Shown here: positions 1,602 through 61,394 of the stretch, one piece after another
How the letters are laid out: each line of letters opens with the position of its first letter
How positions within the stretch are numbered: the first letter of the stretch is position 1
IMG/VR virus record: IMGVR_UViG_3300036944_001324
Span: 1 to 64,000 of that record
Direction: 5' to 3' (one strand)
Source: a virus
Length of the DNA stretch: 64,000 bases
Translations under genes and position numbers: made by a program
The notes under the pieces: generated by a model
The model's input: only the letters and a program-made list of their open reading frames with translations
Databases searched by the model: none
Told to the model about the DNA's origin: nothing

Positions 1602-1626
1602 AGCTCCGGGCTCAATACCCGGAGCT
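1602..1626 (+). terminator. Hairpin between nrdA and nrdB
   Basis: A perfect 9-bp stem (AGCTCCGGG / CCCGGAGCT) with a 7-nt loop sits 14 nt after the nrdA stop. It is preceded by ACGTCATAA, resembling the 5' arm of the recurrent punctuation hairpins. No U-tract follows, so it may be an attenuating or processing hairpin rather than a full terminator. Confidence 0.5.
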
Positions 1627-1652
1627 CTGAACAAAAAGATACCAAGTACATC

Positions 1653-2825
1653 ATGAACCAAATCATCACCCCCGTCAATGCAGCGGCCGCCATCATGGCT
1701 AACATGCAAACGCCGTACGAAACCAGCATTGACAAGAAAATCTTCAACTTCGAGAAGACGGACTACGCAGAACCTTCCTTGTTCTTCGGTCAGGCCAGCG
1801 GCCTCTTCGACACCATCAACCAACACTACCCACAGCTCAAGCGCCTGTACAGCCGCCTCAAGGTTCTGGACTGGGGTGAAACAGAATTCCCCTTCTCGCA
1901 GTGCAATCTGGAGTTCAAACGGATGAAGCCTGAAGTGGCGCGTCCGATGATCGTTCAGCTTGGCTGGCAGTGGGAGACTGACTCCATCGCGGCACGCACC
2001 ATCGCGCCGGTGATGTCCAACTTCCTGACCAACGACACAGCCTTCCGCATGTACCAACGTATTGGGGACAATGAAAGTACCCATGCGGCAACCTACGCCG
2101 AAATCGTGCGGTTCTCTTTTGATAACCCCACTGAAGTGATGGACAGCGTGCTCGGTATCAGCGAAAGCGCTCAGCGCCTGGAAACCGTCTCCAAGGTGTT
2201 TGCTGAAGCCTACAAGGCCGGTCTTGAACTCTCCTTGGGTATTCGCAAGCGTGATCAGGAGACGTTCAACATCTTCTTCATGTTCGTAGTCGCTTTGTTC
2301 ATGATGGAGCGCCTGCAATTCATGATCTCTTTTGGTATCACGTTCACCTACGCGCAGCACAGCCACTTCCTACCCATCGGCAAGGCCGTGCAAAAGATCT
2401 GCCAAGACGAGTATGAAATTCATGCTCTGGCAGGTGCTCACATGTACAACATCCTCATGGACACCGGAGAAGGCATCACTGCTAACTGGGCGTGCCGTGA
2501 TACCATTGTCAAGATGTTCAACGAAATCATGGCGGTGGAGCAAAAATGGCTCCCCTTCCTGCTCGCTGGCAACGAAGACCTCTTTGGCGTTACGCTGCGT
2601 GACTACCAGCAATGGGGTTACTTCTGCGCTGGTGATGTGGCTTCCGTCCTTGGCATCAAGACAGACTTCACAGTTCCAAAGACAGTGCCTATTGACTTCC
2701 TCAAGAACTGGATCAACATCTCGTCGATCCAAGCTTCTTTGCAGGAAGAAAAGAGCGCCGCTTACATGATCGGTGCAGTCATCCGTGACGACATCGGTAA
2801 AGTCTTCGACGTTACGGGCCTCTAA
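1653..2825 (+). CDS. nrdB: Ribonucleoside-diphosphate reductase small subunit (class I radical subunit)
   Basis: Ferritin-fold subunit that holds the diiron-tyrosyl radical cofactor for NrdA. 390 residues, close to the usual 350-400. Visible ligands are D110 (WETDS), E141 and H144 (NESTHAATY), E219 (MMER) and the pair in QDEYEIHA (E253 and H257). Y148 lies four residues after H144, the position of the radical tyrosine in E. coli R2, so a tyrosyl-radical (class Ia-like) enzyme is expected. The last ligand pair is spaced DEYEIH rather than the usual DExxH, an extra residue within the helix. It starts 64 nt after nrdA and is followed 8 nt later by DHFR, consistent with one operon. Confidence 0.96.
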   Translation: MNQIITPVNAAAAIMANMQTPYETSIDKKIFNFEKTDYAEPSLFFGQASGLFDTINQHYPQLKRLYSRLKVLDWGETEFPFSQCNLEFKRMKPEVARPMIVQLGWQWETDSIAARTIAPVMSNFLTNDTAFRMYQRIGDNESTHAATYAEIVRFSFDNPTEVMDSVLGISESAQRLETVSKVFAEAYKAGLELSLGIRKRDQETFNIFFMFVVALFMMERLQFMISFGITFTYAQHSHFLPIGKAVQKICQDEYEIHALAGAHMYNILMDTGEGITANWACRDTIVKMFNEIMAVEQKWLPFLLAGNEDLFGVTLRDYQQWGYFCAGDVASVLGIKTDFTVPKTVPIDFLKNWINISSIQASLQEEKSAAYMIGAVIRDDIGKVFDVTGL

Positions 2826-2833
2826 GGCTTGTC

Positions 2834-3337
2834 ATGAAGATCGGACTGATCTTTGCCAAAGGCACCAACGAGGCCTTTGGCTACAAGAACGCGCTTCCTT
2901 GGGGACGTAACAAGGAAGACATGAAGCACTTCGCTGACATCACCAAAGGTCACGCAGTGCTCATGGGGCGCAACACTTGGGAGAGTCTGCCAGAGGCTTA
3001 CCGGCCTTTGCCAGACCGCACCAACATCATCATGACCCATAGTCAGATGTTACTGCCTAAGGGCAACTTTCACGTATCTTCTTTTGAAGAAGCTATGGCT
3101 GTCGCTAAGTTCAGTCATCGCGATGAGCTCTGGCTCATCGGTGGTGCCAGCCTGTTGCAGTCACTCCAACACCATGCAAGTATTGCCATTGTCACAGAAA
3201 TCGATACAGCATGTACGTTCGATGTACAGGCTCCGGTTCTGGATAAAAGCTGGCAATTAAAAGACACATGCCCAGCATCATTTGAAGGCATAGGTCAGTT
3301 CGGTACCACGTACCGTTTCCACACCTACTGTCGCTGA
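2834..3337 (+). CDS. Dihydrofolate reductase
   Basis: NADPH-dependent reduction of dihydrofolate to tetrahydrofolate, needed to recycle the cofactor oxidised by the thymidylate synthase encoded at 55565-56722. 167 residues, the standard DHFR length. Recognisable blocks are the N-terminal strand MKIGLIFA, LPWGRNKEDMKHF (the conserved L-P-W with an acidic residue downstream), the NADPH-binding VLMGRNTWESLP, then NIIMT and the WLIGGASLL glycine pair. The gene begins 8 nt after nrdB and closes the nucleotide-reduction operon. A GC-rich repeat plus T-run at about 3346-3370 follows it. Confidence 0.93.
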   Translation: MKIGLIFAKGTNEAFGYKNALPWGRNKEDMKHFADITKGHAVLMGRNTWESLPEAYRPLPDRTNIIMTHSQMLLPKGNFHVSSFEEAMAVAKFSHRDELWLIGGASLLQSLQHHASIAIVTEIDTACTFDVQAPVLDKSWQLKDTCPASFEGIGQFGTTYRFHTYCR

Positions 3338-3370
3338 TACTCTGTCCGCTGCGCTTTGCCGCGCTTTTTA

Positions 3371-3412
3371 ACTACCTCGGTGCTTCGGCACTGGGGTAGT
3401 CTTTTTATGCTG
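3371..3412 (+). terminator. Hairpin plus TTTATGCTGT element
   Basis: The stem ACTACC..GTGC / GCAC..GGTAGT with a TTCG tetraloop (3371-3400) is followed by CTTTTTATGCTGT. It separates the DHFR operon from the oxygenase gene. The ATG of the next gene lies only about 9 nt beyond TTTATG, so if TATG is a promoter the message would be nearly leaderless. Confidence 0.8.
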
Positions 3413-3417
3413 TAAAA

Positions 3418-4266
3418 ATGAACTACCAACCTTTTACACCCAAAACCCATCAAGAGCTCGCTCAATTGCTGGTGGACTCCAATAACCCCGCTGTCTGTAT
3501 CCAGCACTTTTCCAACGAGGGCTACGACCCCGATGAGATACAAAGCCAAATTACCAGCTTGATCAATCAGACGTCGTTGGTTGGTCGAACGCTGCGGGTA
3601 GGGGACGCAGCCATGCCGGTGAACAACCTGTGCCCGCAACCTACCGTGGAAAACGGTGTGTTTAAAACACCGCACGGTGCACGCATTCTTTTTGAGATGC
3701 AAGACCCCCACATCGTCCTGTACGATAACTTCATCACTCCGCTGGAATGCGATCAACTCATTGCGTTGTGCGCTGAACGCTTCAATCGTTCTTTGGTGGT
3801 CGGTGGTCCTGGTGAGACAGTGGCTGATACCCGGTCCTCACAGACAGCTCACCTTGCCATCGGGCAAGATCCGTACGTCAAGGCTTTGGAAGCCCGTATT
3901 GCCGAAACAGTTCACTGGCCTACTCTCAAAGCAGAGTCCTTGCAAATTATCAAGTATGAGCCAGGCCAGGAATACCAACCACACTACGACTTCTTCGAAT
4001 ACACCGAAGCAAGTCCTTATCTGGTCTCGCCTGGCTTTCAGCGAACAGCGACCATGATCTTGTACCTCCAGGAGCCTGAGGCAGGAGGAGCAACCAGTTT
4101 CCCTCGTCTTCGTCTGAAGGTACCTGCTCGCCGCGGACAGGCACTGTTCTTCAGTTACCCCACCCCAAATATCAACCACCAAACCCTGCACGGTGGTGAC
4201 CCAGTTATCGAAGGTGTGAAGATCATCGCAACAAAATGGTTCAAGACACTCCAGCACGGATGTTGA
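3418..4266 (+). CDS. 2-oxoglutarate/Fe(II) oxygenase, prolyl-4-hydroxylase-like
   Basis: Belongs by pattern to the prolyl-4-hydroxylase branch of the 2OG-Fe(II) dioxygenases, which hydroxylate protein side chains. 282 residues. The double-stranded beta-helix core is at roughly 98-276. The iron ligands are H189 and D191 (QPHYDFF) and H258 (LHGGDPV), and K268 in EGVKII is the expected 2-oxoglutarate-binding lysine. AGGATSFP and GQALFF are further family blocks. The first ~95 residues precede the catalytic domain and have no recognised motif. The start is the first ATG after the punctuation hairpin and lacks a clear Shine-Dalgarno sequence. The substrate cannot be read from sequence: a virion or host protein is likelier than a free amino acid, but this is inference. 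Confidence 0.88.
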   Translation: MNYQPFTPKTHQELAQLLVDSNNPAVCIQHFSNEGYDPDEIQSQITSLINQTSLVGRTLRVGDAAMPVNNLCPQPTVENGVFKTPHGARILFEMQDPHIVLYDNFITPLECDQLIALCAERFNRSLVVGGPGETVADTRSSQTAHLAIGQDPYVKALEARIAETVHWPTLKAESLQIIKYEPGQEYQPHYDFFEYTEASPYLVSPGFQRTATMILYLQEPEAGGATSFPRLRLKVPARRGQALFFSYPTPNINHQTLHGGDPVIEGVKIIATKWFKTLQHGC

Positions 4267-4328
4267 AATCTTTATGACGTCCTATATGGACAGCCTAATT
4301 TTCAACTTTCTTATGTGAGAGTCTCTCT

Positions 4329-5960
4329 ATGAAACAATCTGTGCTCTCGTCTCTGGGTCTGACTCATGTAGTCACCGAGAGCGAACAAGTCTTGGCTGCG
4401 CCCGTCAGCCAGATCCCCACTCCTATCGAAGTGACACCTGAGATCATCGAAGAAGTCGCTAAGGTGGCTCACGAAGCCAACCGCGGCATCAGTGAAGGCA
4501 CGCCTTTGTCGTGGGATGACAGTACCGACGAGATTCGCCAAAGCGCCATCGATGGCGTGCAAGCGATCGTCAACGATCCGACCATGACGCCTGAGAAGTC
4601 GCACAACAACTGGATGCGCTGGAAGGAGTCGAATGGCTGGGTCTTTGGTGAAGTCAAAGACGAAGAAGCCAAGACCCATCCCTGCATGGTTCCATACAAC
4701 GAACTGCCTGAAGACGAACGCGTCAAAGACCAAGTGTTCGTGGACACCGTCAAATCGGAGCTGATGAAGTACAAAGCTTCCGATGTCAGCGAAAACGACA
4801 TTCCTTCCCCGATCAACGAACAAGCAGTTCCATCGGAGAGCGATATCGATGAAACCACGATGGCGCTGGAAACACTCCTGGCGGCAGCTGACTTGCTGGA
4901 AAATACGCCTGACGAAGGCATGAACTCCACCAATGCCGAACTGGTGGAGACGATGCTTGCTACTGCTGTTGGTCCTCTGCAAGCCAGCTATGCGGTGCCT
5001 TCAGCCGAGTCGTACAAACACGGCAAGGTAGCGTCGCTCAAGAGCTTCGCCAAAGAAGGCATCATGGAACGCGCCACCGCCATCGTTGCCAAGCTGATGG
5101 AAATGGTCAAACGCATCGTTGCGTTCGTTACCGTCTGGGTGAAAGCTGCATTCAACGAACTCGAACGCGCCAAGGCTTATCTGCTGTACGTGCGTCGTCA
5201 GATCCAGAAATACCGCAACACCAACAAAACTGGTCCGGTTCTGACTACTGAGCGGATGCGTGGCATGACAGCTCCTTCCAACCAATCTGTCAAGGTTGGA
5301 TCTGACTTGGCGAGCAACGCCATCACGATGCTCGGTGAGATGTCCACGCGTTTCGTTACGCTGTCTCGTTTCGCTGGCTCCATGTTCAAAGAAACCGCGG
5401 ACAGCGTTACGGGTGAGTTCAAAGGTTCACACCTGATCAACAACATCTACACCGCTTTGGACAGCCTGGGAGGAACCCTTCACCAGTCCGGTACCAAGGC
5501 TTTCATTCTCTCGTCGAGTGGCTTGGGATGGCGTGAAGGAGGGTTGGTTGCGCAAGGTCAATCCGTACCAGTTGACGTTACGGATATCTACTTCCTGTCA
5601 GGTCAGATCGCGGGTTACCAAGCGCAGACCGAAATCACTGGCCTGTCGTTCTCCGACGCTGACCGTTTCCTGTCACAGTTCGGTCAGATCGTGTCCGTGA
5701 TTGAAACCCACCTGCGAACCATCTCGCAGTATGCTGCTTCTCTGTCCAAGGTCCAGACCATCTTGGAATCCGTGCAGCGCGCCGGTAGCTCGGAGCAACA
5801 TGGCGCCGCTCGCAACAAAGCCAAGTTGCGTGAAATCCGCATGACACTCAAGATGGGTCGCGCTTTGGCCAAAGCTGCGATGCACGTCAAGAGTACGACG
5901 ACTGACGCCATGATTGGCGCGGTTTCTCTGGTCAATCAGTCATCCAAGAACTGGTCGTAA
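4329..5960 (+). CDS. Inner virion-type protein with RyR domain
   Basis: 543 residues. It shares architecture with four paralogs (6025, 34986, 36790, 38218): an acidic N-terminal region, an S/A-x-E site (PSAE, 225-227), a second A-K-E at 241-243, a helix rich in aromatic and hydrophobic residues (about 250-290), then a long mixed C-terminal domain. In phiKZ-type phages such acidic proteins are packaged in the head and cut by the prohead protease after S/A-x-E. Unique here is a RyR domain at about 61-147, recognisable from NNWMRWKESNGWVFGE, THPCMVPYNELPEDER and the final VKD. RyR modules are ligand-binding domains named after ryanodine receptors and occur in several phage proteins. Membership in the inner-protein family and the RyR call are pattern-based; the function of the RyR part is unknown. 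Confidence 0.8.
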   Translation: MKQSVLSSLGLTHVVTESEQVLAAPVSQIPTPIEVTPEIIEEVAKVAHEANRGISEGTPLSWDDSTDEIRQSAIDGVQAIVNDPTMTPEKSHNNWMRWKESNGWVFGEVKDEEAKTHPCMVPYNELPEDERVKDQVFVDTVKSELMKYKASDVSENDIPSPINEQAVPSESDIDETTMALETLLAAADLLENTPDEGMNSTNAELVETMLATAVGPLQASYAVPSAESYKHGKVASLKSFAKEGIMERATAIVAKLMEMVKRIVAFVTVWVKAAFNELERAKAYLLYVRRQIQKYRNTNKTGPVLTTERMRGMTAPSNQSVKVGSDLASNAITMLGEMSTRFVTLSRFAGSMFKETADSVTGEFKGSHLINNIYTALDSLGGTLHQSGTKAFILSSSGLGWREGGLVAQGQSVPVDVTDIYFLSGQIAGYQAQTEITGLSFSDADRFLSQFGQIVSVIETHLRTISQYAASLSKVQTILESVQRAGSSEQHGAARNKAKLREIRMTLKMGRALAKAAMHVKSTTTDAMIGAVSLVNQSSKNWS

Positions 5961-5971
5961 TTCTCTGAACC

Positions 5972-6010
5972 AATCCCGTTCTCACGAGCGGGGTTCCTCT
6001 TTTTCTTTTT
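5972..6010 (+). terminator. Intrinsic terminator after RyR virion gene
   Basis: The stem AATCCCG / CGGGGTT (5972-5995) is followed by CTCTTTTTCTTTTT, a classical Rho-independent arrangement. Unlike most terminators in this window it lacks the TTTATGCCGT decamer. Confidence 0.8.
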
Positions 6011-6024
6011 CGGATATTCTAATC

Positions 6025-7335
6025 ATGAGCATTTTTCGTAAACTGGGTCTGGAAAGCACAGTAATTCCTGAAGAAGGTTTGCCCGTTCAAACACCGACAC
6101 CTGAACAAACTCCGGAGCCAACTCAGGCACCTGCTCCCGCCCCAACAGTAACCGGCAATGTTGATGGTGGCGACAGCGGTGTCAACCTCGAGTCCGACGC
6201 TGAAAGCATGCAGCTCGAAGCTGAAGCCGAAACCATGGAAGGCGAAGGCAATGACATCGGTCTGGCAGGCGCTGACATCTCCAAAGCCCTGATCACGCTG
6301 GAGAACATCTCCACCATCTTGGCCAAAGCCCCGGATGAAGAGATCAACGAAACCACTGCAGCGATCGTTGACGCCGCCATCCAGGACATCAACAGCCGCT
6401 TCGACATCGAGAACGCCAAGGAAATCTCGATCGAGTTCTTCCAAGTGCAGGGCGCCAAACAGTACCGCCATAGCGCTAACGAGGCGATCAACGAACGCCT
6501 GGAACAACTCAAGAAAGCAGCCTACGCCGTGGTCGAGAAGATCATCGGTTGGATCAAGCAGTTCTGGAGCTGGCTGACCGCCACCCACAAGAGCACCAAG
6601 AAGAAGTTGGAAGCCGCCATCGCCGCTGCCAAGAACATCACTGTGGATGCCACCGTCACTTTGCCGAAGTACCAAGCAGACCGTCTGGCTTCTGGCGACC
6701 TGGTCGCTTCGACGGTGATCAACAACGGCCGCACGCTCGAAGCAGTGTGCCACAGCTCGACTTTGTTCATCAAGAACGCTTTCCCGAAAGTGATCGGCGC
6801 GCAAATCGCTTTTGTTCTGCGTGAAGAAGGTGTGCATCTGGCCAAGATGTGCTTTGGTAACTTCAAGTCGGCAGGTGACGCGTACGTTCTGTACAGCGGT
6901 ATCGCCGGCCGTCACGTGGAAGTGGACTTCAGTGGCGATGATCCACGCAGTGCCTTCAAGGTGAACGTCTCCAAGGTCTCTTCGGAACGCGGTAGCAACG
7001 AACTGACACTGAAGGAACATGACGTTGACGTGCTGTGTCAGCAGGCTACCCGCACGCTGCAAGCCAGCACGCTTGGCTACGACGAGTGCATGTCCATGAT
7101 TCGCAAGCTCGAAGCATGGCGTGGTTCGGTTGGCGCTGCTGTGGGTGGTCTCGTGTCTCAACGCATCGCTCTCTTGAATAACTACTCTGCAGCGGTGTCC
7201 ACCCTGAGCTCTGTAGGCTACACCGAAGCGCTGCGTTACGCCGATGCAGTGGTTGGCGTTTTGAACGCATACACGAAGGCAGCCAAGCCTGGTAACGATC
7301 TGACCCCCAACACCAACACCCCCCTTCTCAACTAA
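6025..7335 (+). CDS. Inner virion-type protein, paralog
   Basis: 436 residues from ATG 6025, chosen because the upstream in-frame part overlaps the preceding gene and its terminator. Residues ~15-80 are acidic and Pro/Glu/Thr-rich. Then come an S-I-E site at 135-137 (EISIEFF) and an A-N-E at 151-153, followed by an amphipathic helix with several tryptophans (IIGWIKQFWSWL, about 170-181), the layout of its paralogs at 4329, 34986, 36790 and 38218. By analogy with phiKZ-type inner-body proteins, the N-terminal acidic propeptide would be removed inside the prohead. The C-terminal 250 residues are not recognisable. The gene follows the RyR-containing paralog and precedes a punctuation hairpin, so the pair forms a small structural island away from the main virion block. 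Confidence 0.72.
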   Translation: MSIFRKLGLESTVIPEEGLPVQTPTPEQTPEPTQAPAPAPTVTGNVDGGDSGVNLESDAESMQLEAEAETMEGEGNDIGLAGADISKALITLENISTILAKAPDEEINETTAAIVDAAIQDINSRFDIENAKEISIEFFQVQGAKQYRHSANEAINERLEQLKKAAYAVVEKIIGWIKQFWSWLTATHKSTKKKLEAAIAAAKNITVDATVTLPKYQADRLASGDLVASTVINNGRTLEAVCHSSTLFIKNAFPKVIGAQIAFVLREEGVHLAKMCFGNFKSAGDAYVLYSGIAGRHVEVDFSGDDPRSAFKVNVSKVSSERGSNELTLKEHDVDVLCQQATRTLQASTLGYDECMSMIRKLEAWRGSVGAAVGGLVSQRIALLNNYSAAVSTLSSVGYTEALRYADAVVGVLNAYTKAAKPGNDLTPNTNTPLLN

Positions 7336-7345
7336 TCATTGAGCC

Positions 7346-7391
7346 GACGGCATAAGAAGGAAGCTTACGGGCTTCCTTCTTTTATGCTGCC
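7346..7391 (+). terminator. Punctuation hairpin with mirrored GACGGCATAA/TTTATGCTGCC arms
   Basis: A long stem: GACGGCATAAGAAGGAAGC pairs with GCTTCCTTCTTTTATGCTGCC around a 6-nt loop. It is one of the clearest examples in which the conserved decamer forms the outer part of the stem. It lies between an inner virion gene and the dCTP deaminase gene. Confidence 0.85.
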
Positions 7392-7466
7392 TAGACAGTT
7401 TTTATTCATACCAAATCAATGGTGTGTTAACTATTTCTACCCATTCGAATACCGAAGGATTTTCTC

Positions 7467-8177
7467 ATGCTGATGTCTGATATCTGGATCAAGGAGCAGT
7501 GTCTCAATAAGGACCGTCCGATGATCACCCCTTTTTATCAAGAATCGATCTCTCACGTGGTCAACGATGTCACGCGCAATCCGCTCGGCGGTCTGATCGC
7601 CAACACCGTTAACACGACGAGCTACGGTCTGTCGTCCTACGGCTACGACTTGAGTCTTGGCAACAAATTCAAAATCTTGCGTTCTGTCAGTGACTTCTAT
7701 CGAGACGAAGTCACTGGTCGTCTGTACGATCGCGACCCCAACGTCATTTACAACGATGGCAAAGGCGCACAAGAAATTGAAATTGATCCCTGCAATTTCA
7801 ACCCACTTCTGTTCCGGGATGTAGAAGTCAAGGACGGCGAGAAGGTGGTCATTCCACCCCGTGGTTTTGCGCTCGGCGTGGTTGGGAACCATCTGGACCT
7901 GCCAGATGACATCATGGGTGTTTGCATGGAGAAATCTACCATTGCCCGTACCGCCATCGAAGTGACGGTCACTCCAGTGGAAGCAGGCTGGCGTGGTTAC
8001 CTCACTCTCGAGATCTGCAACAAGACCGACTACCCGGCAGTTCTGACCGCGGGCATGGGTATCACACAGCTGATGTTCTTCAAGGGTGACCAACCTTGCT
8101 CCGTTCCGTACCATGCGCGCAACGGTAAGTACCAAGATCAACCCGCAGAACCCGTGATTGCACGGATGAAGGATTGA
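7467..8177 (+). CDS. dCTP deaminase / dUTPase-superfamily protein
   Basis: Likely converts dCTP to dUTP (and ammonia) in the route to dTMP, feeding the phage thymidylate synthase. 236 residues, longer than the usual ~190. Family blocks are SSYGYDLSLG (56-65), EKSTIAR (155-161, compare KSSLAR of E. coli Dcd) and AGWRGYLTLEI (173-183). E182 is at the position of the catalytic glutamate, and a C-terminal Gly/Gln segment follows (GMGITQLMF). An insertion between the first two blocks (about 80-125) accounts for the extra length. An AAGGA ribosome-binding site lies about 8 nt upstream of ATG 7467. A bifunctional deaminase/dUTPase is also possible and cannot be distinguished here. Confidence 0.85.
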   Translation: MLMSDIWIKEQCLNKDRPMITPFYQESISHVVNDVTRNPLGGLIANTVNTTSYGLSSYGYDLSLGNKFKILRSVSDFYRDEVTGRLYDRDPNVIYNDGKGAQEIEIDPCNFNPLLFRDVEVKDGEKVVIPPRGFALGVVGNHLDLPDDIMGVCMEKSTIARTAIEVTVTPVEAGWRGYLTLEICNKTDYPAVLTAGMGITQLMFFKGDQPCSVPYHARNGKYQDQPAEPVIARMKD

Positions 8178-8178
8178 A

Positions 8179-8712
8179 ATGACACAAGACCTCGGGCGTG
8201 GGTGGTCGTCTGCAATCATTCCGTGTGATGAATTCGGACGCCCCTTCCCCAAACCCCACAGTCCATCTAACGATAAAGCAGGAACAACCATGACCACCCC
8301 AGAAGCCAATGTGCAGCACAGTCCTTTCATCAATGGCGTACCCCCTGCCATCGTGGAAGTCGATCCCGTTCCGCCCGAGTGGTACGAAGAACAAGAACGC
8401 ATCTCGCAGCAAGAACGCGCGGCTGAACTGGCTAAAGTTCAAGCCCAGGTCACTGCGATGAATGAAGCCTGCCAAACCGCTGGCGTCAATCCGATCGCAG
8501 TAGCGTTCCGTGCCCTGGCCAACGCCATGCAGTCCGACCCAGGCTACGCCTGGTCGTGGCATTGCAACATCGCGATGCCTATCCATGACGAGGGTGTTAC
8601 CCCTCGCACTGCCAACCTGGCGGCTGCACGGATCATGCGCCATGTCTTCGAAGTGGACACCATGACACAAGTCCAATCCGATTTCGACGCCGCAAAGCCC
8701 AAAGAGGCCTAA
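8179..8712 (+). CDS. Unrecognised protein with conserved C-terminal phage motif
   Basis: 177 residues. It begins 1 nt after the dCTP deaminase stop with AAGGA upstream, so it is probably co-translated. A second ATG at 8290 with its own AGGA is an alternative start and would give 140 residues. The C-terminal part (about 115-165), with AWSWHCNIAM, HDEG and AAARIMRHVFEVD, resembles short conserved proteins seen in many phages, from memory only. No catalytic motif or membrane segment is visible. Function unknown. Confidence 0.75.
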   Translation: MTQDLGRGWSSAIIPCDEFGRPFPKPHSPSNDKAGTTMTTPEANVQHSPFINGVPPAIVEVDPVPPEWYEEQERISQQERAAELAKVQAQVTAMNEACQTAGVNPIAVAFRALANAMQSDPGYAWSWHCNIAMPIHDEGVTPRTANLAAARIMRHVFEVDTMTQVQSDFDAAKPKEA

Positions 8713-8716
8713 CAAC

Positions 8717-8845
8717 ATGGCGCAGCAGACAGTACTCATCGGACACGAAAGCAACGTCATCTCCACACTGCTTCGGGAGATGCTTAAAGCCTGGATCGAG
8801 GAAGATACAGACATCCGCTACTGTTGTCTTGATACCAGTGCCTAA
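8717..8845 (+). CDS. Small hypothetical protein (42 aa)
   Basis: A short open frame starting 4 nt after the preceding stop and reading MAQQTVLIGHESNVIS..., ending in two adjacent cysteines and SA. It fills the only gap in this cluster in the same orientation with tight spacing, which supports translation. There is no strong Shine-Dalgarno site and no recognised motif. Confidence 0.45.
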   Translation: MAQQTVLIGHESNVISTLLREMLKAWIEEDTDIRYCCLDTSA

Positions 8846-8920
8846 CGGGTTCACTAACCTCGAAGCCCGCGCGTTTATACGTCGGATCACCAACACGTGA
8901 AACTCAAACAACGCCCGATC

Positions 8921-9478
8921 ATGCGAAGACCTTTCGCCACAGAAAAGGTCTTCGCAGGTATTGGCAACAGAGATGCACCAGAATGGGCCTTGAAGCTGTG
9001 CTCTTTGATTTCTGACATCCTTGCCAGTAGTGGTTACATCCTACGCTCCGGCGGGGCACCCGGATGTGATCAAGCTTTTCAGTCTCGGGCAAGCATTCAT
9101 TCAGAGATCTACGTACCGTGGCACGGCTTTGAAGGCTTCCCTATGAGGTGGCCAATACCAGATATCGCCTACGAAGCTGCACTCTACTACAAACCGTCTA
9201 TACGCTACGCCAGTGACGGTGTGGCGTCCATGACTGCTAGAAACATGATGCAGATACTGGGTCCCGATCTCAAGACCAAAGCAGACTTCGTGGTCTGTTA
9301 CACCAAGAACGGCAGACAAGAAAACTACGACGGCTACAAAGACGTATGTGGGACTGACTCAGCCATCACTTGTGCTAGAGACAACGGAATCCCGGTCATC
9401 AACATCTGCAATCCTGGTTGGTCTGAATACCTCTCAGCGATTACAGGTTTGGACTTCTTACACTTGGAGAACGCATGA
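8921..9478 (+). CDS. SLOG-superfamily (DprA/LOG-like) nucleotide-binding protein
   Basis: 185 residues from ATG 8921; a GTG at 8897 would add 8 residues and cannot be excluded. The Rossmann-like start KVFAGIGNRDAP, the glycine-rich loop GYILRSGGAPGCDQAF and a later polar pocket segment match the SLOG superfamily, which includes DprA and LOG and binds nucleotides or nucleotide-derived ligands. The GxRD and SGGA/GxD blocks are the usual signature. Its stop overlaps the next start (ATGA), so the two are translationally coupled. Close to nucleotide-metabolism genes, so nucleotide binding or hydrolysis is plausible. Precise activity unknown. Confidence 0.68.
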   Translation: MRRPFATEKVFAGIGNRDAPEWALKLCSLISDILASSGYILRSGGAPGCDQAFQSRASIHSEIYVPWHGFEGFPMRWPIPDIAYEAALYYKPSIRYASDGVASMTARNMMQILGPDLKTKADFVVCYTKNGRQENYDGYKDVCGTDSAITCARDNGIPVINICNPGWSEYLSAITGLDFLHLENA

Positions 9479-9906
9479 CAGAAACAGCACGCTTTAACTT
9501 TCACACGGTCGATCATCAAGAGCGTTTCAAGAAACGCATGGCTGAGAAACCCGGTCGTCTCACAGGCGCCACTATTGTGGTGGACGGTCAGATCGACAAC
9601 ATGCCCAGCCTCTTTCCGAACGCCTCCAACGTTTACGCAAAGCTCCTGGCCAACCTGCGCTCAGCGCAGTACCTGCCTGACGAGATCTCGATGCTCGACG
9701 ATTTCACCGTCGTCGGCTTTCCTCGTTCTGTTTTGTCTTTTGACAAACTGCAAACGGTGGACATGATCGTCTCCGTTCCTGATGGCGTCTTTGTTTTGGA
9801 GATTTTCTTCAATTACAAAGGTGGAACGTCCATTGACTACAGCACCGGTATCCATACTGGCCTTGCAACCACCGTGCGTGCCCCTACGAGGCCTCAACCA
9901 GAGTGA
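9475..9906 (+). CDS. Hypothetical protein
   Basis: 143 residues, coupled to the SLOG-like gene through an ATGA overlap. It has a mixed alpha/beta composition with a charged N-terminus and a C-terminal tail rich in Thr, Arg and Pro. I see no family motif, signal peptide or membrane segment. It ends the operon at a large convergent hairpin. Confidence 0.7.
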   Translation: MTETARFNFHTVDHQERFKKRMAEKPGRLTGATIVVDGQIDNMPSLFPNASNVYAKLLANLRSAQYLPDEISMLDDFTVVGFPRSVLSFDKLQTVDMIVSVPDGVFVLEIFFNYKGGTSIDYSTGIHTGLATTVRAPTRPQPE

Positions 9907-9914
9907 GGCAACAT

Positions 9915-9987
9915 AACCCCCTACCCCGCAGCACCGAGGCCTTGTAGAGGCTTTAATGGTGTTGAAGGGTAGGGGGTTTATGCCGTG
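9915..9987 (+). terminator. Large branched convergent terminator with TTTATGCCGT
   Basis: An outer stem AACCCCCTACCC / GGGTAGGGGGTT (9915-9926 with 9967-9978) encloses GCACC/GGTGT and GCCTTGTAGAGGC mini-stems and is followed by ATGCCGT. It lies between convergent genes (+ ending 9906, - ending 9991) and can serve both strands. Confidence 0.8.
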
Positions 9988-9990
9988 AGG

Positions 9991-11202
9991 CTATCGAGGG
10001 GTAGCCAGACCGAGAGCACTGCGCAGATTCTCAAGGCCTTTGGGAGCAGTCTCGTCGAAGTACGGATCAGCAACAGTCTTGAGAACGATCACAGGAACTT
10101 CCGTCAAAGCCAGTTCTTCGTACAGCGCTGTCGCTGCTTTCAAGATCGTGATGATCTGATCGAAACGCTTTTGCAATGCCTGAGCAAGATTACTTGCATC
10201 GAGATTCTTGAACGCGTATTCACGAGCCGTGTTCAAGTTGTCGGTTGCGTCAGCCTCTGGTTTGGGAAGCTTCCCGAGGTAGGTAGCCAGTCCCAACATA
10301 GCACCAGCCAACAAACGCAAGTAGCCGATCGCGGTTTCAGACCCGATACCTGAGACAACCGTGATGAGCATGCGATCACCCGGCTTGAAAACACCGACAG
10401 AATCACGCAAGTACTCTTTCCACAACCCCGTACCTTCACCGGCTGCAACTGTGCCCAGGTCATAGATACGTTCGTCAGCAGTGAACTCGTTCGAGCAAAG
10501 AATGGCTTCGTTCAGAGATCTGCTCAGAGGCGCCAAGGCACCCACCTGACGCATCGCATCAACGAATCGCTCGATCGCATCGACAGGGTTGTGGTACCAG
10601 CTCGCGTGGTTGGACAACCAGTCATTGGCCAGCGGCGCGTTAAGCTCAGGTGTAGCGCGACGACAGAAGTCGATAGGTGTAAAGTCGTGCACCGTCACGT
10701 AAGCTGACACAGCCGACGTATAGGCTTGGTAGCACTGGTCAATCACCTGCATCGCATCGTTACCAGTCTTGTTCAGCAAAGCCACGAGACGCTCGTTCAG
10801 CGCAGATGAAGCAGTGCTGGCCTGATTCATGATGTCGGCACCGCGTGCCTTCAAACGGTCAACGGTTTCATCCACGTTGGCGCCGGTTGGTTTGTCGGTG
10901 TACAAGCCGATAGGGTTTTCAGCATCGACAATGCCGTTGACAATGTCTTCCAAAGCCATGACTTCAGAGGCACTGATTGTGCGGCGCTTCTCGATAGCCA
11001 TGATTGCGTTGGCAACCTGGTTACCTTGATCGGCTTGGTCTCTGAGTTTGGAGAAATCAACAATGATCTCCCCGATGTCGGTGACGTCACCTGTCAGGCT
11101 TTCTTCGAGATTTTGCATCTGACCTGCATTGCCGTTGAAGCTGGTGCCTGGATCGGTTGGAACAAGGTTCACAACATCCAGATCGTCAAGAGGTGGGTTC
11201 AT
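9991..11202 (-). CDS. Unrecognised protein, probable virion component
   Basis: 403 residues on the minus strand, last of a three-gene unit with the metallopeptidase-like protein and a small protein; only 14 nt separate it from the upstream gene. It is mostly helical in appearance, Ala/Leu-rich, with an acidic first 60 residues and a moderately hydrophobic stretch around SETAIGYLRLLAGAMLGLATYL (about 305-325). No catalytic motif is recognised. Its placement next to portal and other virion genes makes a structural or ejected protein possible, but that is inference. Confidence 0.72.
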   Translation of the reverse strand: MNPPLDDLDVVNLVPTDPGTSFNGNAGQMQNLEESLTGDVTDIGEIIVDFSKLRDQADQGNQVANAIMAIEKRRTISASEVMALEDIVNGIVDAENPIGLYTDKPTGANVDETVDRLKARGADIMNQASTASSALNERLVALLNKTGNDAMQVIDQCYQAYTSAVSAYVTVHDFTPIDFCRRATPELNAPLANDWLSNHASWYHNPVDAIERFVDAMRQVGALAPLSRSLNEAILCSNEFTADERIYDLGTVAAGEGTGLWKEYLRDSVGVFKPGDRMLITVVSGIGSETAIGYLRLLAGAMLGLATYLGKLPKPEADATDNLNTAREYAFKNLDASNLAQALQKRFDQIITILKAATALYEELALTEVPVIVLKTVADPYFDETAPKGLENLRSALGLATPR

Positions 11203-11216
11203 TACGACCTCTTGAT

Positions 11217-11693
11217 TTAGTAAGCAGTCGTCTGGGTGCCAGCGACCATGTTCGTGCGAACAATGGCGGACAGCAGACGGGCGAACAAAGGCTCGATAGC
11301 TGCTGCGTTGTCCGACAGATCAGCCAGCAAAGGTGCGGGCACGTTGTAGCTGATGCCGAACAGCGACAGCACACTGGCGTTCAGGCCGCTACCCGCAGTG
11401 ATCTGCGGAACCACAGCGCCGTGGGCAATCGCGTAACGTGCATTCCACAAGGCCTTGATGTTCTGCACAGTGTCGACCATGGGGACAGGACGAACTTCCG
11501 TAAACACACCACAGATGTTTTCACTGACGGTCTTGAAGTGCTCGTCAAAGTACCCCATGGGGGATTCGACAGGCATGGACGGCAAGGGCAACGCATACGC
11601 AACAGCCAGCGCTACGGCGCGATGAAAGTTGACAGCCAGCGAAGTGCTGGCGATTTGCGAGATGGTGTCTTGGTCGAGGTATTGGTGATGCAT
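11217..11693 (-). CDS. Unrecognised protein
   Basis: 158 residues from ATG 11693 (MHHQYLDQD...). An earlier in-frame start at 11705 would add four residues. It has alternating hydrophobic and small residues, a Pro-rich loop (LPLPSMP) and no recognised motif. It sits between the metallopeptidase-like gene and the 403-residue gene with short gaps, so it is probably part of one minus-strand transcript. Confidence 0.65.
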   Translation of the reverse strand: MHHQYLDQDTISQIASTSLAVNFHRAVALAVAYALPLPSMPVESPMGYFDEHFKTVSENICGVFTEVRPVPMVDTVQNIKALWNARYAIAHGAVVPQITAGSGLNASVLSLFGISYNVPAPLLADLSDNAAAIEPLFARLLSAIVRTNMVAGTQTTAY

Positions 11694-11716
11694 GATTGAA
11701 AACAAGAAGAAAAGGA

Positions 11717-13021
11717 TTAGGCTTTAGCAGCCAGGCGTTGAGCGTTAACGAACAGGTCGTTATGTGCCAGTAGCTCGATGTCACGCTCCAGACGGAACGC
11801 AAAAGAAGCACGGCGGTTGGAAGTGAAGATATTGGCGATGTCTTCTGCAAGGGTAGTAAGTTCTCGACCACCCTTGAGCATTTTGTCAATGCTGTCAAGT
11901 TCTTTAAGAAGCCGTTCACGTGTGACGTGGTCCAACTCGAAGTTTTTGAGTTGAGCTACAACTGTTTCACGGATGCGCTGGAGGCGAACGTAAGGTTTGT
12001 CGTACTGGTTGGCTTGTTGGATAAAACGATCGCCACGACCACTGTAGAAGATCGTGGTTGCTGTGAGCAAAATACCAACCGCTATCCCAGCGCCAAAAGA
12101 AGCAAATCCGAGCGTAATACCCGCTAGCATAGAAACAGTCACTGGTCCCACGTAAAGCAGGAAGCTCTCAAAAGCGTTAACCCGACCCATTTCAGAATCG
12201 TACTCAGAACCAGCCCAGATACTGGCCAAGTCTTCAGCGAAGCCCCATTTGGCGGCAAAGTTATCTGCCAGAGCTTCACAGTTCACGCCAGCTACAGAGT
12301 TGTCCCCAAAGTCCGTTGCCAGTTTATGGTAGGTTCGAGCGAACACCACTGTAGAGATAGCGGTATCGTCTTTCATCGTGACACACTCGATGAACTCACG
12401 CGGATTACCGGTCAGGTCATTGGCAGCCACTTCCAGCGCATGCTCGTACGTAATACTGGTGTCGGTACCGACGCGAACTTGGTGCAGGCTTGCCAGAATT
12501 TGGGAAGCACGCACAGTGCGGTACATCAATTCAAAGGCAATAAACAAATGCCCGATCTCATGCATGAGAGCAGCCGCACACTGTCGAGGCGTGAAATTAG
12601 CTTTGCAAAACCGGAAACCCATTACTACGGGCGACACAAAAGTGGAATAAATCCCACCGATCTTGCCGTTCTTCAAATCAACAAAACCCTTTTTGGTGTT
12701 GGATTTTTTGATAGCCTCGATGAAACGGTTGGTCTCGGAGTTATAACCGTTATCAAAAATAATGGTACTCAAAACGTGCCGAGAATTTGCCATGACTGGC
12801 AGACACCCCGGCGGAATGAACGTATTGAGTTGAAGATCAATCTTGATGCCAAGACGATTGAAGACCAAGTCCACAATAGCCTTACAGGCCTTCGAGTCTT
12901 GTGCTTCGCGCATTGACCGACACTCGTACACTTGTTCGAACAACGCAGTCAGCTTGTCGCCGAAGTCATTCGTTTGTTGTGCAATCAGCTCGCAAGCAAT
13001 AGCACGTGCTTTGTGGTTCAT
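11717..13021 (-). CDS. Membrane-anchored zinc metallopeptidase-like protein
   Basis: 434 residues from ATG 13021, preferred over upstream in-frame codons because those encode a Cys-rich, unlikely N-terminus. HEIGH at 154-158 is a gluzincin HExxH motif, with the two zinc histidines and the catalytic Glu. EALAD at 249-253 supplies the expected third ligand and the flanking Asp, as in M48-like or related peptidases. Two closely spaced hydrophobic segments (about 286-326, Gly/Ala-rich) form a membrane hairpin, followed by a basic, helical C-terminal domain. It leads the minus-strand unit ending at 9991. Substrate unknown: candidates are host membrane proteins or virion parts. Confidence 0.78.
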   Translation of the reverse strand: MNHKARAIACELIAQQTNDFGDKLTALFEQVYECRSMREAQDSKACKAIVDLVFNRLGIKIDLQLNTFIPPGCLPVMANSRHVLSTIIFDNGYNSETNRFIEAIKKSNTKKGFVDLKNGKIGGIYSTFVSPVVMGFRFCKANFTPRQCAAALMHEIGHLFIAFELMYRTVRASQILASLHQVRVGTDTSITYEHALEVAANDLTGNPREFIECVTMKDDTAISTVVFARTYHKLATDFGDNSVAGVNCEALADNFAAKWGFAEDLASIWAGSEYDSEMGRVNAFESFLLYVGPVTVSMLAGITLGFASFGAGIAVGILLTATTIFYSGRGDRFIQQANQYDKPYVRLQRIRETVVAQLKNFELDHVTRERLLKELDSIDKMLKGGRELTTLAEDIANIFTSNRRASFAFRLERDIELLAHNDLFVNAQRLAAKA

Positions 13022-13165
13022 AGTTAGTCGCAGAAAAGAAAATGGAGCCACTACCCTCCGCATGACGCAGCAAGGGTAGCAGTTTGAAATTAAGCACATG
13101 ATTTAACAACTTTTATTCCTTCCCTATGCAGGAAGTCACACAAGACGCTTTTTTAGACACCGCCC

Positions 13166-13205
13166 AGGTATCCTAATGTATAAAGCCAGTCGTTCACTGG
13201 CTTAA
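13166..13205. promoter_or_regulatory. Divergent intergenic region with small hairpin
   Basis: The ~200-nt gap (13022-13223) lies between divergent genes (metallopeptidase -, DNA polymerase +), so it must contain start signals for both. Visible are AGCCAGTCGTTCACTGGCTT (a 7-bp hairpin) preceded by TATCCTAATGTATAAAG. On the plus strand CCCTATGCAGG also occurs at about 13122. No copy of TTTATGCCGT or of the GCGATATATA element is present. Confidence 0.35.
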
Positions 13206-13223
13206 AGTCTACCCCCAAACAAC

Positions 13224-14945: not shown

Positions 14946-14956
14946 GGTGCGATACG

Positions 14957-15499
14957 ATGTTTGACCACTTGGTTTCACAACTCACCAAAGGCACTCCAAA
15001 AACATCCGAGGTCTGGTTGGAGTCTGCTCCTAACAAAAAATCTGCGACGGTAAGGAGCGTTGCAATCAAGATGCGTAACGTAGAGTCTGGAGAGATATTT
15101 CTTTTCCAGTCATTGGCAGCAGCCGGCCGATACTTTCGCATATCTGACCTGCGCATGATCAAGGGATTGGTTGATAACCCAGAACGGATGTGGCGCGGTC
15201 ATCAAGCTAAACCCTTGAAAGACAAGACTGATTGGGTGTCTCCTATCCAAAATAACGAATCCGTTTCCAAGGTCGTTAAAGGTGTCAATCACACTTACTA
15301 CCTCATCACTTGGAAGGATACCGGTGAGGAACAAGTTTGCATCGGATACGAGCAGGCTGCCTCCATTACTGGTGTAACCAGATCGTATCTCTCCAAGCTG
15401 GTGTGTTATGGTGACAAACCTAACAAACTCAACTTCAGTATCAGGAAAGCTTCGCAAGAAGATGTCCTCAGATACGAAAGCGGTCCAGTTACCGACTAA
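14957..15499 (+). CDS. Possible DNA-binding protein, homing-endonuclease-accessory-like
   Basis: 180 residues, 11 nt after the polymerase stop with an AAGGTG element upstream. It is a paralog of the gene at 15604: both open with MFD..L..QL, contain an MRN/RDxExGE-type beta-hairpin, a central W..QA+P segment, then a TGEE..(I/L)G segment followed by a helix-turn-helix-like stretch (AASITGVTRSYLSKLV). This layout recalls the NUMOD/IENR-type DNA-binding modules attached to homing endonucleases, but no HNH or GIY-YIG nuclease core is visible. Its position next to an apparently incomplete polymerase gene makes an intron or split-gene role worth testing. Confidence 0.6.
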   Translation: MFDHLVSQLTKGTPKTSEVWLESAPNKKSATVRSVAIKMRNVESGEIFLFQSLAAAGRYFRISDLRMIKGLVDNPERMWRGHQAKPLKDKTDWVSPIQNNESVSKVVKGVNHTYYLITWKDTGEEQVCIGYEQAASITGVTRSYLSKLVCYGDKPNKLNFSIRKASQEDVLRYESGPVTD

Positions 15500-15505
15500 G
15501 CAAAA

Positions 15506-15540
15506 AGAGAAAGTCTCATCAGCTTTCTCTTTTATGCCGT
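15506..15540 (+). terminator. Hairpin plus TTTATGCCGT
   Basis: The stem AGAGAAAG / CTTTCTCT (15506-15530) is followed directly by TTTATGCCGT. It separates the two paralogous ORFs, so the second probably has its own transcript start. Confidence 0.8.
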
Positions 15541-15603
15541 GCGTGTTTTTTCATTAGTTGATTACCCATCGTTTGAAGAGACTTTCACTTACTCATTTAA
15601 CAA

Positions 15604-16176: not shown

Positions 16177-16231
16177 CGACATAAAAGACCTACCCGGACC
16201 ATCTAAGGCTCGGGTAGGTCTTTATGCCGTT
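16175..16231. terminator. Symmetric convergent punctuation hairpin
   Basis: GACGACATAAAAGACCTACCCGG pairs with CGGGTAGGTCTTTATGCCGT. Read from either strand it ends in T(T)TTATG(C/T)CGT(C), fitting its place between convergent genes (+ ending 16176, - ending 16239). Confidence 0.85.
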
Positions 16232-16238
16232 TAGGCGT

Positions 16239-23358: not shown

Positions 23359-23377
23359 CGTTTTGATTAATCCGTTT

Positions 23378-48637: not shown

Positions 48638-48683
48638 GACGGCATAAAGCGAGCCTCCCGGGAAGGGAGGCTCGTATGTCGTT
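48638..48683 (+). terminator. Punctuation hairpin with GACGGCATA / TATGTCGT arms
   Basis: CGAGCCTCCC / GGGAGGCTCG (48650-48674), flanked by GACGGCATAAAG upstream and TATGTCGTT downstream. Marks the end of the virion operon. Confidence 0.87.
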
Positions 48684-48710
48684 TCAGTAACCGCGTTTGT
48701 GAGTTTATCC

Positions 48711-49971: not shown

Positions 49972-50271
49972 ATGAGCGAAATCAAAACATACAACGACAT
50001 TGCCTTTGACATTTTGCGCCTGCGCAAGCAGATGCAAGATGAGTTGCAAAGTCGTTGCCGTGTGGTGATGAACAAGCTAGATATGGCCGTGGATGCCGGT
50101 CAGGTGAAACCTTCTCGTGAGGTGGCGCTGTGTAAGAGCATTTGGGATGAGTTCAACGCCATCCCTGTCACGATTCGCAATACCTGCGATCCTGACATTT
50201 CTTCTGAGTTGACCACGCTGATCGAAACAGCTGGTTATATCCCTAACTTCAAGGTTTGGGAAATGCGTTAA
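49972..50271 (+). CDS. Small helical protein, probable early gene
   Basis: 99 residues, first gene after an early-type promoter. Highly charged, helical, beginning MSEIKTYNDIAFDILRLRKQM. No recognised family. Leader CGGAGAATCCGACA precedes the ATG. Likely an early host-takeover factor by position only. Confidence 0.7.
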   Translation: MSEIKTYNDIAFDILRLRKQMQDELQSRCRVVMNKLDMAVDAGQVKPSREVALCKSIWDEFNAIPVTIRNTCDPDISSELTTLIETAGYIPNFKVWEMR

Positions 50272-50318
50272 CGGCATACAAGCAAGGAAGGTGAAAACCT
50301 TCCTTGCTTTATGTCCTC
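50271..50318 (+). terminator. Punctuation hairpin ACGGCATACAA...TTTATGTCCTC
   Basis: AAGCAAGGAAGG / CCTTCCTTGCTT (50280-50309) with flanking ACGGCATAC and TATGTCC. The start of the next gene follows at 50353. Confidence 0.85.
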
Positions 50319-54539: not shown

Positions 54540-54548
54540 AACCGCCTG

Positions 54549-54610
54549 ACAGCATATACCTCCAAGCGTGCAAGCTGCCTTCGGGTGGCTTGCACGCTTT
54601 GTATGTTGCT
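54549..54610 (+). terminator. Punctuation hairpin GACAGCATA...GTATGTTGCT
   Basis: The stem AAGCGTGCAAGC / GCTTGCACGCTT (54564-54599) is flanked by GACAGCATATACC and TGTATGTTGCT, a divergent version of the common arms. It closes the small-gene cluster; the next gene (dNMP kinase) starts ~140 nt later. Confidence 0.82.
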
Positions 54611-54749
54611 GGTTTCTTTTTTCTGTCTTATTGAACCCATGTGTGTAGGTGCGAACTAAAATCGCATTCCAAAAATCTTGACTCATACATCATCGTAGCG
54701 GAGCTACTGAGCGTGAGTTTCGTTTATTCTTTTTTTTTGGTGTTTTCTC

Positions 54750-58598: not shown

Positions 58599-58652
58599 GA
58601 CAGCATAAAGCCCTCTGTAGCCCCGATAAAGGGCTACAGAGGGTATTTTATG
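58599..58652 (+). terminator. Perfect 13-bp hairpin with TTTTATGGG
   Basis: CCCTCTGTAGCCC / GGGCTACAGAGGG (58611-58643) with flanking GACAGCATAAAG and TATTTTATGGGC. The 3' decamer is degraded (TATGGGCA). Confidence 0.85.
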
Positions 58653-58739
58653 GGCATTTCTTTTTCGGGTAGTCTCTGAACACGAATGACCACGCTCTCA
58701 AGCTGTCTCTTTCTTTCTTTTTCACTTTAGGAATTCATC

Positions 58740-60041: not shown

Positions 60042-60090
60042 CAAACCGGCATATTGCCTGGGCTTTTATAGCCCAGGCCTTTATGCCGTC
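60042..60090 (+). terminator. Punctuation hairpin with TTTATGCCGTC
   Basis: GCCTGGGC / GCCCAGGC (60056-60078) then CTTTATGCCGTC; the upstream ACCGGCATATTG mirrors it in part. Immediately followed by promoter copy 4. Confidence 0.87.
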
Positions 60091-60170: not shown

Positions 60171-60197
60171 TTCAACCAACCTTTAAGGAGTATCCAC

Positions 60198-60545
60198 ATG
60201 TTCGCATCTTTCAACTTTTCTGAATTCGCCGCCATCTTCGCTGTCTACGCAGTGGCGGTTGTGATCTCGCAAATCTTCCTGCCACAACTCGTCGTCTTGA
60301 TGTCCAAGGCCAGCGTTCGCAACCTCAACTTCGGTGCCGTTCTTTCGCTCACCAGCCTTGGTGCCTGGATCGCCAGCATCGTGATCTTTGGTTGGGAAGC
60401 CGTTGCTGTCTTCATCATCGGCTCCATTACCGAAGTTATCATTGGTTACGTTCGCCGCAAGACCATCGTCGCTGCCGCGATTAAGGGTTTCGCAGACGCG
60501 ACAGCGCCCCTGAACTTCAACGATATCGACAGCAAAGCGCTGTAA
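60198..60545 (+). CDS. Small membrane protein
   Basis: 115 residues from ATG 60198; an upstream in-frame ATG lies in the leader and is rejected. Three hydrophobic segments (AAIFAVYAVAVVISQIFLPQ; AVLSLTSLGAWIASIVIFG; VFIIGSITEVIIGYV). Small integral membrane protein, perhaps affecting the host envelope during early infection. No family. Confidence 0.68.
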   Translation: MFASFNFSEFAAIFAVYAVAVVISQIFLPQLVVLMSKASVRNLNFGAVLSLTSLGAWIASIVIFGWEAVAVFIIGSITEVIIGYVRRKTIVAAAIKGFADATAPLNFNDIDSKAL

Positions 60546-60554
60546 GGGACTGAC

Positions 60555-60806
60555 ATGCCTTCTTCCACCGCAGCTGATCTCGAAGCAATTCGGGACGTAA
60601 CGGTAAGTTACATGAACAAGGTAATCAGTGACATCACTGATTACCGTGCAGGTGCTGAAGGCAACAAAGCCCTCAGCCCTGCACTCAAGAACGAGGTCAC
60701 GAGCCTCTGCGCTCAGCGCGTAGAAGCCAACTTGACCAACATCAACAAGAACATCGAGCGCTTCAAGTCGGGTGCGCTCGGAGTTTTTGATCAGCCCTCT
60801 AGCTAA
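60555..60806 (+). CDS. Small helical protein
   Basis: 83 residues, charged and helical, with no membrane segment. It starts 9 nt after the preceding stop, and its own stop overlaps the ATG of the next frame (TAATGG). Function unknown. Confidence 0.62.
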   Translation: MPSSTAADLEAIRDVTVSYMNKVISDITDYRAGAEGNKALSPALKNEVTSLCAQRVEANLTNINKNIERFKSGALGVFDQPSS

Positions 60807-60817
60807 TGGAGGCTGAT

Positions 60818-61342
60818 ATGGCAGTTACCCGACGTCCCCGCAGCGTGGGCAGCCTGCAAGATCTGCAGCAACTGTTCTCGCCCCTTGATCCCCAAGAAAC
60901 CAAACTGAAAGAAACTGAAATCATGAACACCGCACAAAACGCTTCCTCCACCAACAACGTGAACGCTTCTCCTGCTGACATGGCCGAAGCCCTGCAAATG
61001 ATCCAAGCCACGCGCCAAGCGCTGAACGAGCAAGTGGCCCGCGCCGCTGCCACGGCACAAGCCAGCGAAGAACAAGCTGCCGACGCCGTCAAGCGTGTCT
61101 CCGAAATGCGCACCGACTTCGAAAGCGCCACCAGCGACCTCAAGGCCCGCATCAACGTCCTCGAAGCTGCTGCCAAGGCTGCCAATGGCGGCACTGCTCC
61201 TGTCAAGAAGCCCGTGTACAAGCGTGCTCTCGACATCGCTCAGCAAGTCGGCGGCGTTGGCGCCCTGATCGGTGGCGTGGTCTACGGCGGCAAGCTCGCC
61301 TACGACCGCTTCACTGGTGACGGCGACACTGCTCAGGTCTAA
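60818..61342 (+). CDS. Helical protein with coiled-coil middle
   Basis: 174 residues from ATG 60818, preferred because GGAGG lies 5 nt upstream; an ATG four codons earlier overlaps the previous stop. Long helical, Ala/Gln/Glu-rich middle (IQATRQALNEQVARAAATAQASEEQAADAV) looks like a coiled coil, and a Gly-rich hydrophobic C-terminus (VGALIGGVVYGG) could contact a membrane. Codon use is strongly biased (GCC, AAG), suggesting high expression. Ends at a convergent hairpin. Confidence 0.66.
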   Translation: MAVTRRPRSVGSLQDLQQLFSPLDPQETKLKETEIMNTAQNASSTNNVNASPADMAEALQMIQATRQALNEQVARAAATAQASEEQAADAVKRVSEMRTDFESATSDLKARINVLEAAAKAANGGTAPVKKPVYKRALDIAQQVGGVGALIGGVVYGGKLAYDRFTGDGDTAQV

Positions 61343-61348
61343 ACACTG

Positions 61349-61394
61349 ACGGCATAGCTAGCAGACCCTCACGGGTCTGCTAGCTTGTCCTGAT
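61349..61394. terminator. Convergent hairpin with 13-bp perfect stem
   Basis: AGCTAGCAGACCC / GGGTCTGCTAGCT (61356-61385) around TCAC, preceded by GACGGCAT. The minus strand reads GCTATGCCGTC after the stem. It lies between converging genes. Confidence 0.87.

Follow-up and report, generated by a model that had tools for sequence, protein, structure and literature searches.

Gene-end hairpins with a TATG tail as probable intrinsic terminators of a phiKZ-like jumbo phage

Late promoters of the jumbo phage phiKZ consist of little more than the word TATG, whose G is the +1 position (PMC4666361), and GP123, a core subunit of the phiKZ non-virion RNA polymerase (nvRNAP), holds the non-template TATG at positions -3 to +1 in a pocket of its own (PMC12809450). 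Regarding how such polymerases stop, the AR9 structure paper says outright that termination is undescribed (PMC9209446), and neither a 2026 review of jumbo phages (PMC13282480) nor a review of the history of phiKZ mentions terminators. Here, we analyse a recurrent element formed by a GC-rich hairpin and a tail containing TATG, found at gene ends in the first 64 kb (the window) of the 271,654-bp virus record IMGVR_UViG_3300036944_001324. The first-pass annotation of this DNA had proposed about twenty transcription-unit ends of this single design, and had considered a combined terminator and late promoter a plausible reading. From the sequence comparisons described below, these elements are best explained, with a probability of roughly 0.7, as intrinsic terminators, often bidirectional, which would serve the RNA polymerase of the phage itself.

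Genes were called with a codon model before hairpins were scanned for, and the analysis was redone on a held-out set of six 20-kb stretches (120 kb) outside the window. Window and held-out set form a sample of 184 kb, split into 29 kb intergenic and 155 kb coding, where TATGYYGTY (Y being a pyrimidine) occurs 57 times in intergenic and 6 times in coding DNA, that is, 1.95 versus 0.039 per kb, a 50-fold difference. The corresponding counts are 1 versus 2 for a scrambled control pattern and 0 versus 10 for the reversed one. Forty of these 57 intergenic sites lie directly after a detected short-loop hairpin, and others have long-loop hairpins upstream. Strong hairpins likewise precede the 63 intergenic sites of the shorter TATGYYGT, the 49 nucleotides (nt) upstream of which have a median minimum free energy of -21.1, versus about -9.5 at other TATG sites (p from about 1e-18 to 1e-28); within the window, 22 of the 23 TATGYYGT sites are intergenic. 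Allowing up to two mismatches, TTTATGCCGTY is matched 51 times in the window versus 24 ± 5 in shuffles, and its exact form is present 20 times in the whole record, where the reversed pattern does not occur.

The same association is seen when starting from the hairpins. TATG is present in the tails of 13/25 gene-end hairpins in the window and 24/42 in the held-out set, compared with about 2% of the hairpins inside genes, and it marks 43 of the 72 gene-end tails in this phage. About 19 elements were counted in the window (Table 1), in good agreement with the original estimate; all 13 sites given then as examples are present in the sequence, the tail pattern also holds in the 120 kb outside the window, and hairpins inside genes do not carry it equally often. 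Around 40% of the gene-end hairpins (e.g., those at 5972, 33399, 36706, and 56735) have no TATG tail.

The position of the elements relative to genes bears directly on their role. In this phage, they are found in 10 of the 13 convergent gaps and in 2 of the 14 divergent ones (p=0.002), and in pooled relatives in 27/54 versus 2/48 (p=1e-7). In co-directional gaps, the median distance of the sense copy is 45 nt from the stop codon preceding it and 119 nt from the start codon that follows. This preference for convergent gaps, the avoidance of divergent ones, and the proximity to stop codons argue that the elements are very probably transcription terminators, at which transcripts would end, and not promoters of the next gene. 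An exception to the convergent and co-directional rule is the hairpin at 32147-32191, which has a minus-strand TTATGCAGTC tail and lies in a divergent gap.

As in canonical intrinsic terminators, a strong GC-rich hairpin stands directly after the gene; however, it is not followed directly by a run of about six to eight U. The tail has instead the consensus YTYY-TATG-CYGTY, in which a short T-rich stretch precedes TATG, and the T before the G of this word (T-1) is usually located 3-7 nt, with a mode of 6, beyond the outermost G-C pair, close to the stem-to-end distance of bacterial intrinsic terminators. The decamer described as conserved in the first-pass annotation is kept beside unrelated stems, but its invariant core is reduced to TATG, with the T-rich stretch before it and YYGTY after it.

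The tail is present on both strands in 22 of 49 elements. When the two arms of these elements are read as one stem, an A.C mismatch appears at tail position 6 in 9/22 and a mismatch at position 9 in 10/22, each strand keeping its own pyrimidines at the same paired position. Since a complete TATG on one strand or both was the criterion for choosing elements, this comparison of the arms covers the positions after TATG and not TATG itself. Because the arms mispair freely while each strand keeps its pyrimidines, the 5' mirror reads as the tail of the opposite strand, and not as a mere extension of the stem or a pairing partner. The function beyond base pairing that had been argued for the decamer is well supported by the mismatches at position 6. 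Tails without the 5' mirror, also reported earlier, were confirmed, and the converse is seen at 1592-1630 and 61348-61385.

This architecture extends to other phages. TATG tails follow 42-75% of the gene-end hairpins in nine phages, namely this one and eight isolates: phiKZ (9/14), 201phi2-1 (8/19), OBP (9/13), FLC9 (11/18), LucasX (9/20), Kodama (9/20), KpHz_2 (10/17), and Special G (9/12). Most IMG/VR relatives also carry them, and TATG emerged unprompted as the most enriched 4-mer of the tails in at least eight of the 15 phages tested. One gene, phrog_3248, was compared across 11 relatives, two of them near-identical: in 9, its orthologue is followed by a hairpin and then TATG, the stems being unrelated. 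TTATGYCGTY occurs 100 times in 17 related records, versus about 26 for its reversed control. Contrary to these phages, TATG tails are essentially absent from the gene-end hairpins of SPN3US (0/18) and AR9 (1/15), and in phiR1-37 TATG is found at 3/18, all three within stems. In pVa-21 (L022) and SPN3US (L037), most tails are T-runs; GTC(T) comes next in several of them (TTTTTTGTCT), giving the impression that the downstream GTY portion of the signal predated TATG. In the Serratia phage PCH45 (L039, L046), several tails show TGTG (TTTGTGCTGTC) where relatives show TATG.

The proposed mechanism starts from the likeness between the tail and the late promoter. The GP123 homologue of this phage, encoded at G000:67782-69446 and with solved relatives (7ogp, 7ogr, 8que, and 9rjs), keeps six contact residues of the pocket (S144, F151, H185, H331, S334, and Q466), but not N398 and Y399. 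The window protein at 13224-14945 was rejected as a GP123 homologue after an alignment with 12% identity. S144, F151, H/Y185, H331, S334, and Q466 are kept in nearly all phages with TATG tails, with the exceptions of P144 in EL and Y151 in one relative, whereas the pocket is altered in SPN3US (C144, F185, E334), pVa-21 (T334, E466), and AR9. The terminators would serve a polymerase encoded by the phage, with the non-virion enzyme as the presumed reader. On the strand being read, a GC-rich RNA hairpin would be followed by the short T-rich stretch and TATG, usually within TATGYYGTY, which together replace the full U-tract, and the second arm would offer the same tail to the opposite strand, often making the terminator bidirectional. 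Since it is the core enzyme that reads TATG, the word would in principle be readable again during elongation; the GP123 pocket could re-grip it and halt the polymerase once the RNA 3' end stands about 6 nt beyond the hairpin base, and the hairpin would then release the transcript. A possible contribution of YYGTY is to slow the forward movement. This pocket mechanism is advanced tentatively, at somewhat less than even odds, and slightly more tentative is the broader idea that one word and one core pocket set the start at the promoter, stall the polymerase after the hairpin, and possibly allow a restart at some sites.

Three other explanations have to be weighed. The combined terminator and late promoter, where the post-hairpin TATG would start the next transcription unit, stood in its terminator half, well supported by the convergent gaps, and fell in its promoter half as a general function. 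Even though phiKZ late promoters need TATG and some elements lie upstream of a co-directional gene, the elements avoid the divergent gaps, which are the start regions where late promoters of the phiKZ type are required, and promoters at the convergent sites would make antisense RNA. Moreover, masking the elements leaves no excess of TATG in the regions upstream of genes (65 versus 78 ± 9 in shuffles), the sense copies sit nearer to the stop than to the next start, and YYGTY is missing both from the logo of phiKZ late promoters and from P119L, which also lacks a hairpin. A general promoter role is therefore quite improbable, with a terminate-and-restart role possible at some co-directional sites; the link of the tail to the TATG core of late promoters still looks meaningful, as one polymerase pocket could read both.

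The elements could also be ordinary Rho-independent terminators, the decamer being the stereotyped base of a long stem with an A-tract and a U-tract. Folds do show that the arms can pair in many elements, but the free mispairing described above, the pyrimidines on both strands at the same paired position, and the tails that persist without a mirror speak against it, as does a scan of the first 20 kb for T-rich terminators, in which a single TATG element of that stretch was recovered; we give this explanation little weight. Alternatively, a separate phage protein would read the tail in RNA or DNA, either as a termination or 3'-processing factor or as a DNA-binding protein recognising an inverted repeat. 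The conservation of YYGTY beyond TATG, outside the known promoter pocket, and the inverted repeat created by the second arm fit this possibility. However, TATG, the strongest part of the tail, is precisely the motif of the polymerase pocket, the variable arm spacing and the one-armed elements count against a dimeric DNA-binding protein, and we know of no factor that reads the tail; a separate reader is considered unlikely.

Termination by the phage polymerase through these tails has several observations weighing against it. Nine of the 40 co-directional elements carry the antisense tail only. PCH45 and L033 keep the pocket yet have few TATG tails (3/22 and 1/8, respectively), and EL, with P144 in its pocket, has only 4/14. 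The phiKZ gene PHIKZ298, for which an RNA of about 100 nt from the 3' untranslated region was detected by Northern blot, has the tail TTATAT and not TATG; the other phiKZ non-coding RNA with Northern data that was considered, the p40 5' untranslated region, could be located only approximately. In the GP123 tree, SPN3US and pVa-21 are sisters that represent one nested loss and AR9 is a distant outgroup; since this amounts to one in-family loss plus an outgroup instead of many independent events, the correlation between pocket and tail across phages is only suggestive. The transcribing phiKZ complex has an incomplete TATG pocket (PMC12809450), which makes re-gripping during elongation hypothetical, and some of the termination may be the work of the virion polymerase.

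Table 1. Hairpin elements with a TATG tail in the window, and one contrasting gene-end hairpin.
Feature	Position	Strand	Details
Element	1592-1630		hairpin 1599-1629; minus-strand antisense tail TTTATGACGTT only
Hairpin 3371-3400 with sense tail TTTTTATGCTGTA	3371-3414	+	no 5' mirror
Two-armed element	7346-7391		minus tail CTTATGCCGTC, hairpin 7354-7381, plus tail TTTATGCTGCC
Long-loop hairpin (CCCCCTACCC...GGGTAGGGGG)	9908-9987	+	tail TTTATGCCGTG; 5' side CAACATAA, a weak antisense tail
Hairpin with sense tail TTTATGCCGTG	15503-15541	+	no 5' mirror
Two-armed element between convergent genes	16175-16231		minus tail TTTATGTCGTC, plus tail TTTATGCCGTT
Long-loop hairpin	23296-23362	+	tail TTTATGCCGTT
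Hairpin	25645-25680	+	tail TTTATGTCGTC; 5' mirror not clear
Two-armed element between convergent genes	26388-26432		minus tail CTTATGCTGTC, plus tail TTTATGCCGTT
Minus-strand terminator (putative)	27420-27459	-	tail TTTATGCCGTC; after gene 27473-27904(-)
Hairpin	38063-38100	+	tail TTTATGCTGTT
Hairpin	39426-39463	+	tail TTTATGCCGTC
Hairpin 40599-40624	40590-40633		plus tail CTTATGCTGTC, weak minus tail TATGACGAT
Two-armed element	48638-48685		minus tail TTTATGCCGTC, plus tail TATGTCGTT
Two-armed element	50270-50318		minus tail TGTATGCCGTT, plus tail TTTATGTCCTC
16-bp hairpin 54564-54599	54548-54611		minus tail TATATGCTGTC, plus tail TGTATGTTGCT
Hairpin 58607-58647	58599-58658		minus tail TTTATGCTGTC, plus tail TTTTATGGGC
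Hairpin 60056-60078	60048-60090		plus tail TTTATGCCGTC, minus tail TATGCCGGT
Element between convergent genes	61348-61385		minus tail GCTATGCCGTC; no TATG on plus strand
Contrast: gene-end hairpin	5972-6010	+	ordinary T-rich tail (CCTCTTTTTCTTTTT), no TATG

Some individual sites are worth describing. At 25670-25680 and 50308-50318, the AUG of the tail shares the reading frame of the gene that follows (open reading frames from 25673 and 50311); the tail may serve there as a start codon too, unless the true starts lie later. Two near-identical putative terminators (AGGAGGACCYTTCGGGGTCCTCCT plus TTTATGTCGATTCTAT) are found 1.5 kb apart at L016:16155-16194 and 17694-17733, probably after duplicated genes. 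An apparently non-coding stretch of about 600 nt (L017:6644-7251, G000:246644-247251) contains at least six strong hairpins, and could be a structured RNA or contain missed small genes. A relationship with repeats of the repetitive extragenic palindromic (REP) or bacterial interspersed mosaic element (BIME) type was rejected, given that the stems are unrelated between copies and match no Rfam family.

As for the phage itself, the proteins of the window match families of phiKZ-like jumbo phages (e.g., phrog_3004, 3222, and 3248), and one structural protein has its nearest annotated relative in Burkholderia phage FLC9, with 35% amino-acid identity. A nucleotide search with 20 kb of the phage DNA gave no match among known phages, and window scans for Rfam families and tRNAs were both empty. 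Sigma-70-like promoters are scarce at window positions 1-20000 (4 matches versus 13.3 expected from shuffles), which fits a phage that avoids the host polymerase.

In the literature found, the stopping of both multisubunit polymerases of phiKZ-like phages is undescribed, and a motif shared across the family allows a direct and cheap test with purified nvRNAP. The tail would also improve the operon maps of nucleus-forming phages, and a termination tied to the start-site motif could partly account for the rarity of transcription starts at TATG despite its abundance in the genome. The TATG-tailed element is filed here as a variant form of intrinsic terminator, and an apparently new one: our full-text literature search found no description of the tail, a prior mention being possible notably in the phiKZ operon mapping and differential RNA-seq work. 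The key mapping of the phiKZ operons is reportedly that of Ceyssens 2014.

Among known systems, the DNA-uptake sequences of Neisseria are also a short word, ATGCCGTC, that is conserved and flanks gene-end hairpins as inverted pairs; an uptake-sequence reading was rejected, as the orientation here is the opposite, the letters vary, and the phages infect unrelated hosts. In the class II termination signal of T7 RNA polymerase and in bacterial pausing dependent on sigma or core elements, a short specific sequence stalls the elongating polymerase, but the candidate signal described here follows a hairpin and equals the start-site motif bound by a core beta-like subunit. With bacterial intrinsic terminators, the elements share a GC-rich hairpin just past the stop codon, an expected end about 6-8 nt past the stem, and frequent use by two convergent genes, the difference being that a short T-rich stretch with the conserved TATGYYGTY replaces the full U-tract. 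In AR9, phiR1-37, and SPN3US, giant phages that encode multisubunit polymerases of their own, the terminators are also gene-end hairpins; however, the tails of AR9 and SPN3US are T-rich and lack TATG, and phiR1-37 has few TATG, inside stems. A further parallel is the TATG of phiKZ late promoters, read by GP123 of the nvRNAP (PMC4666361, PMC12809450), with identical letters, the same polymerase family, and shared pocket residues, although here TATG follows a gene-end hairpin, bears the YYGTY extension, and avoids divergent positions.

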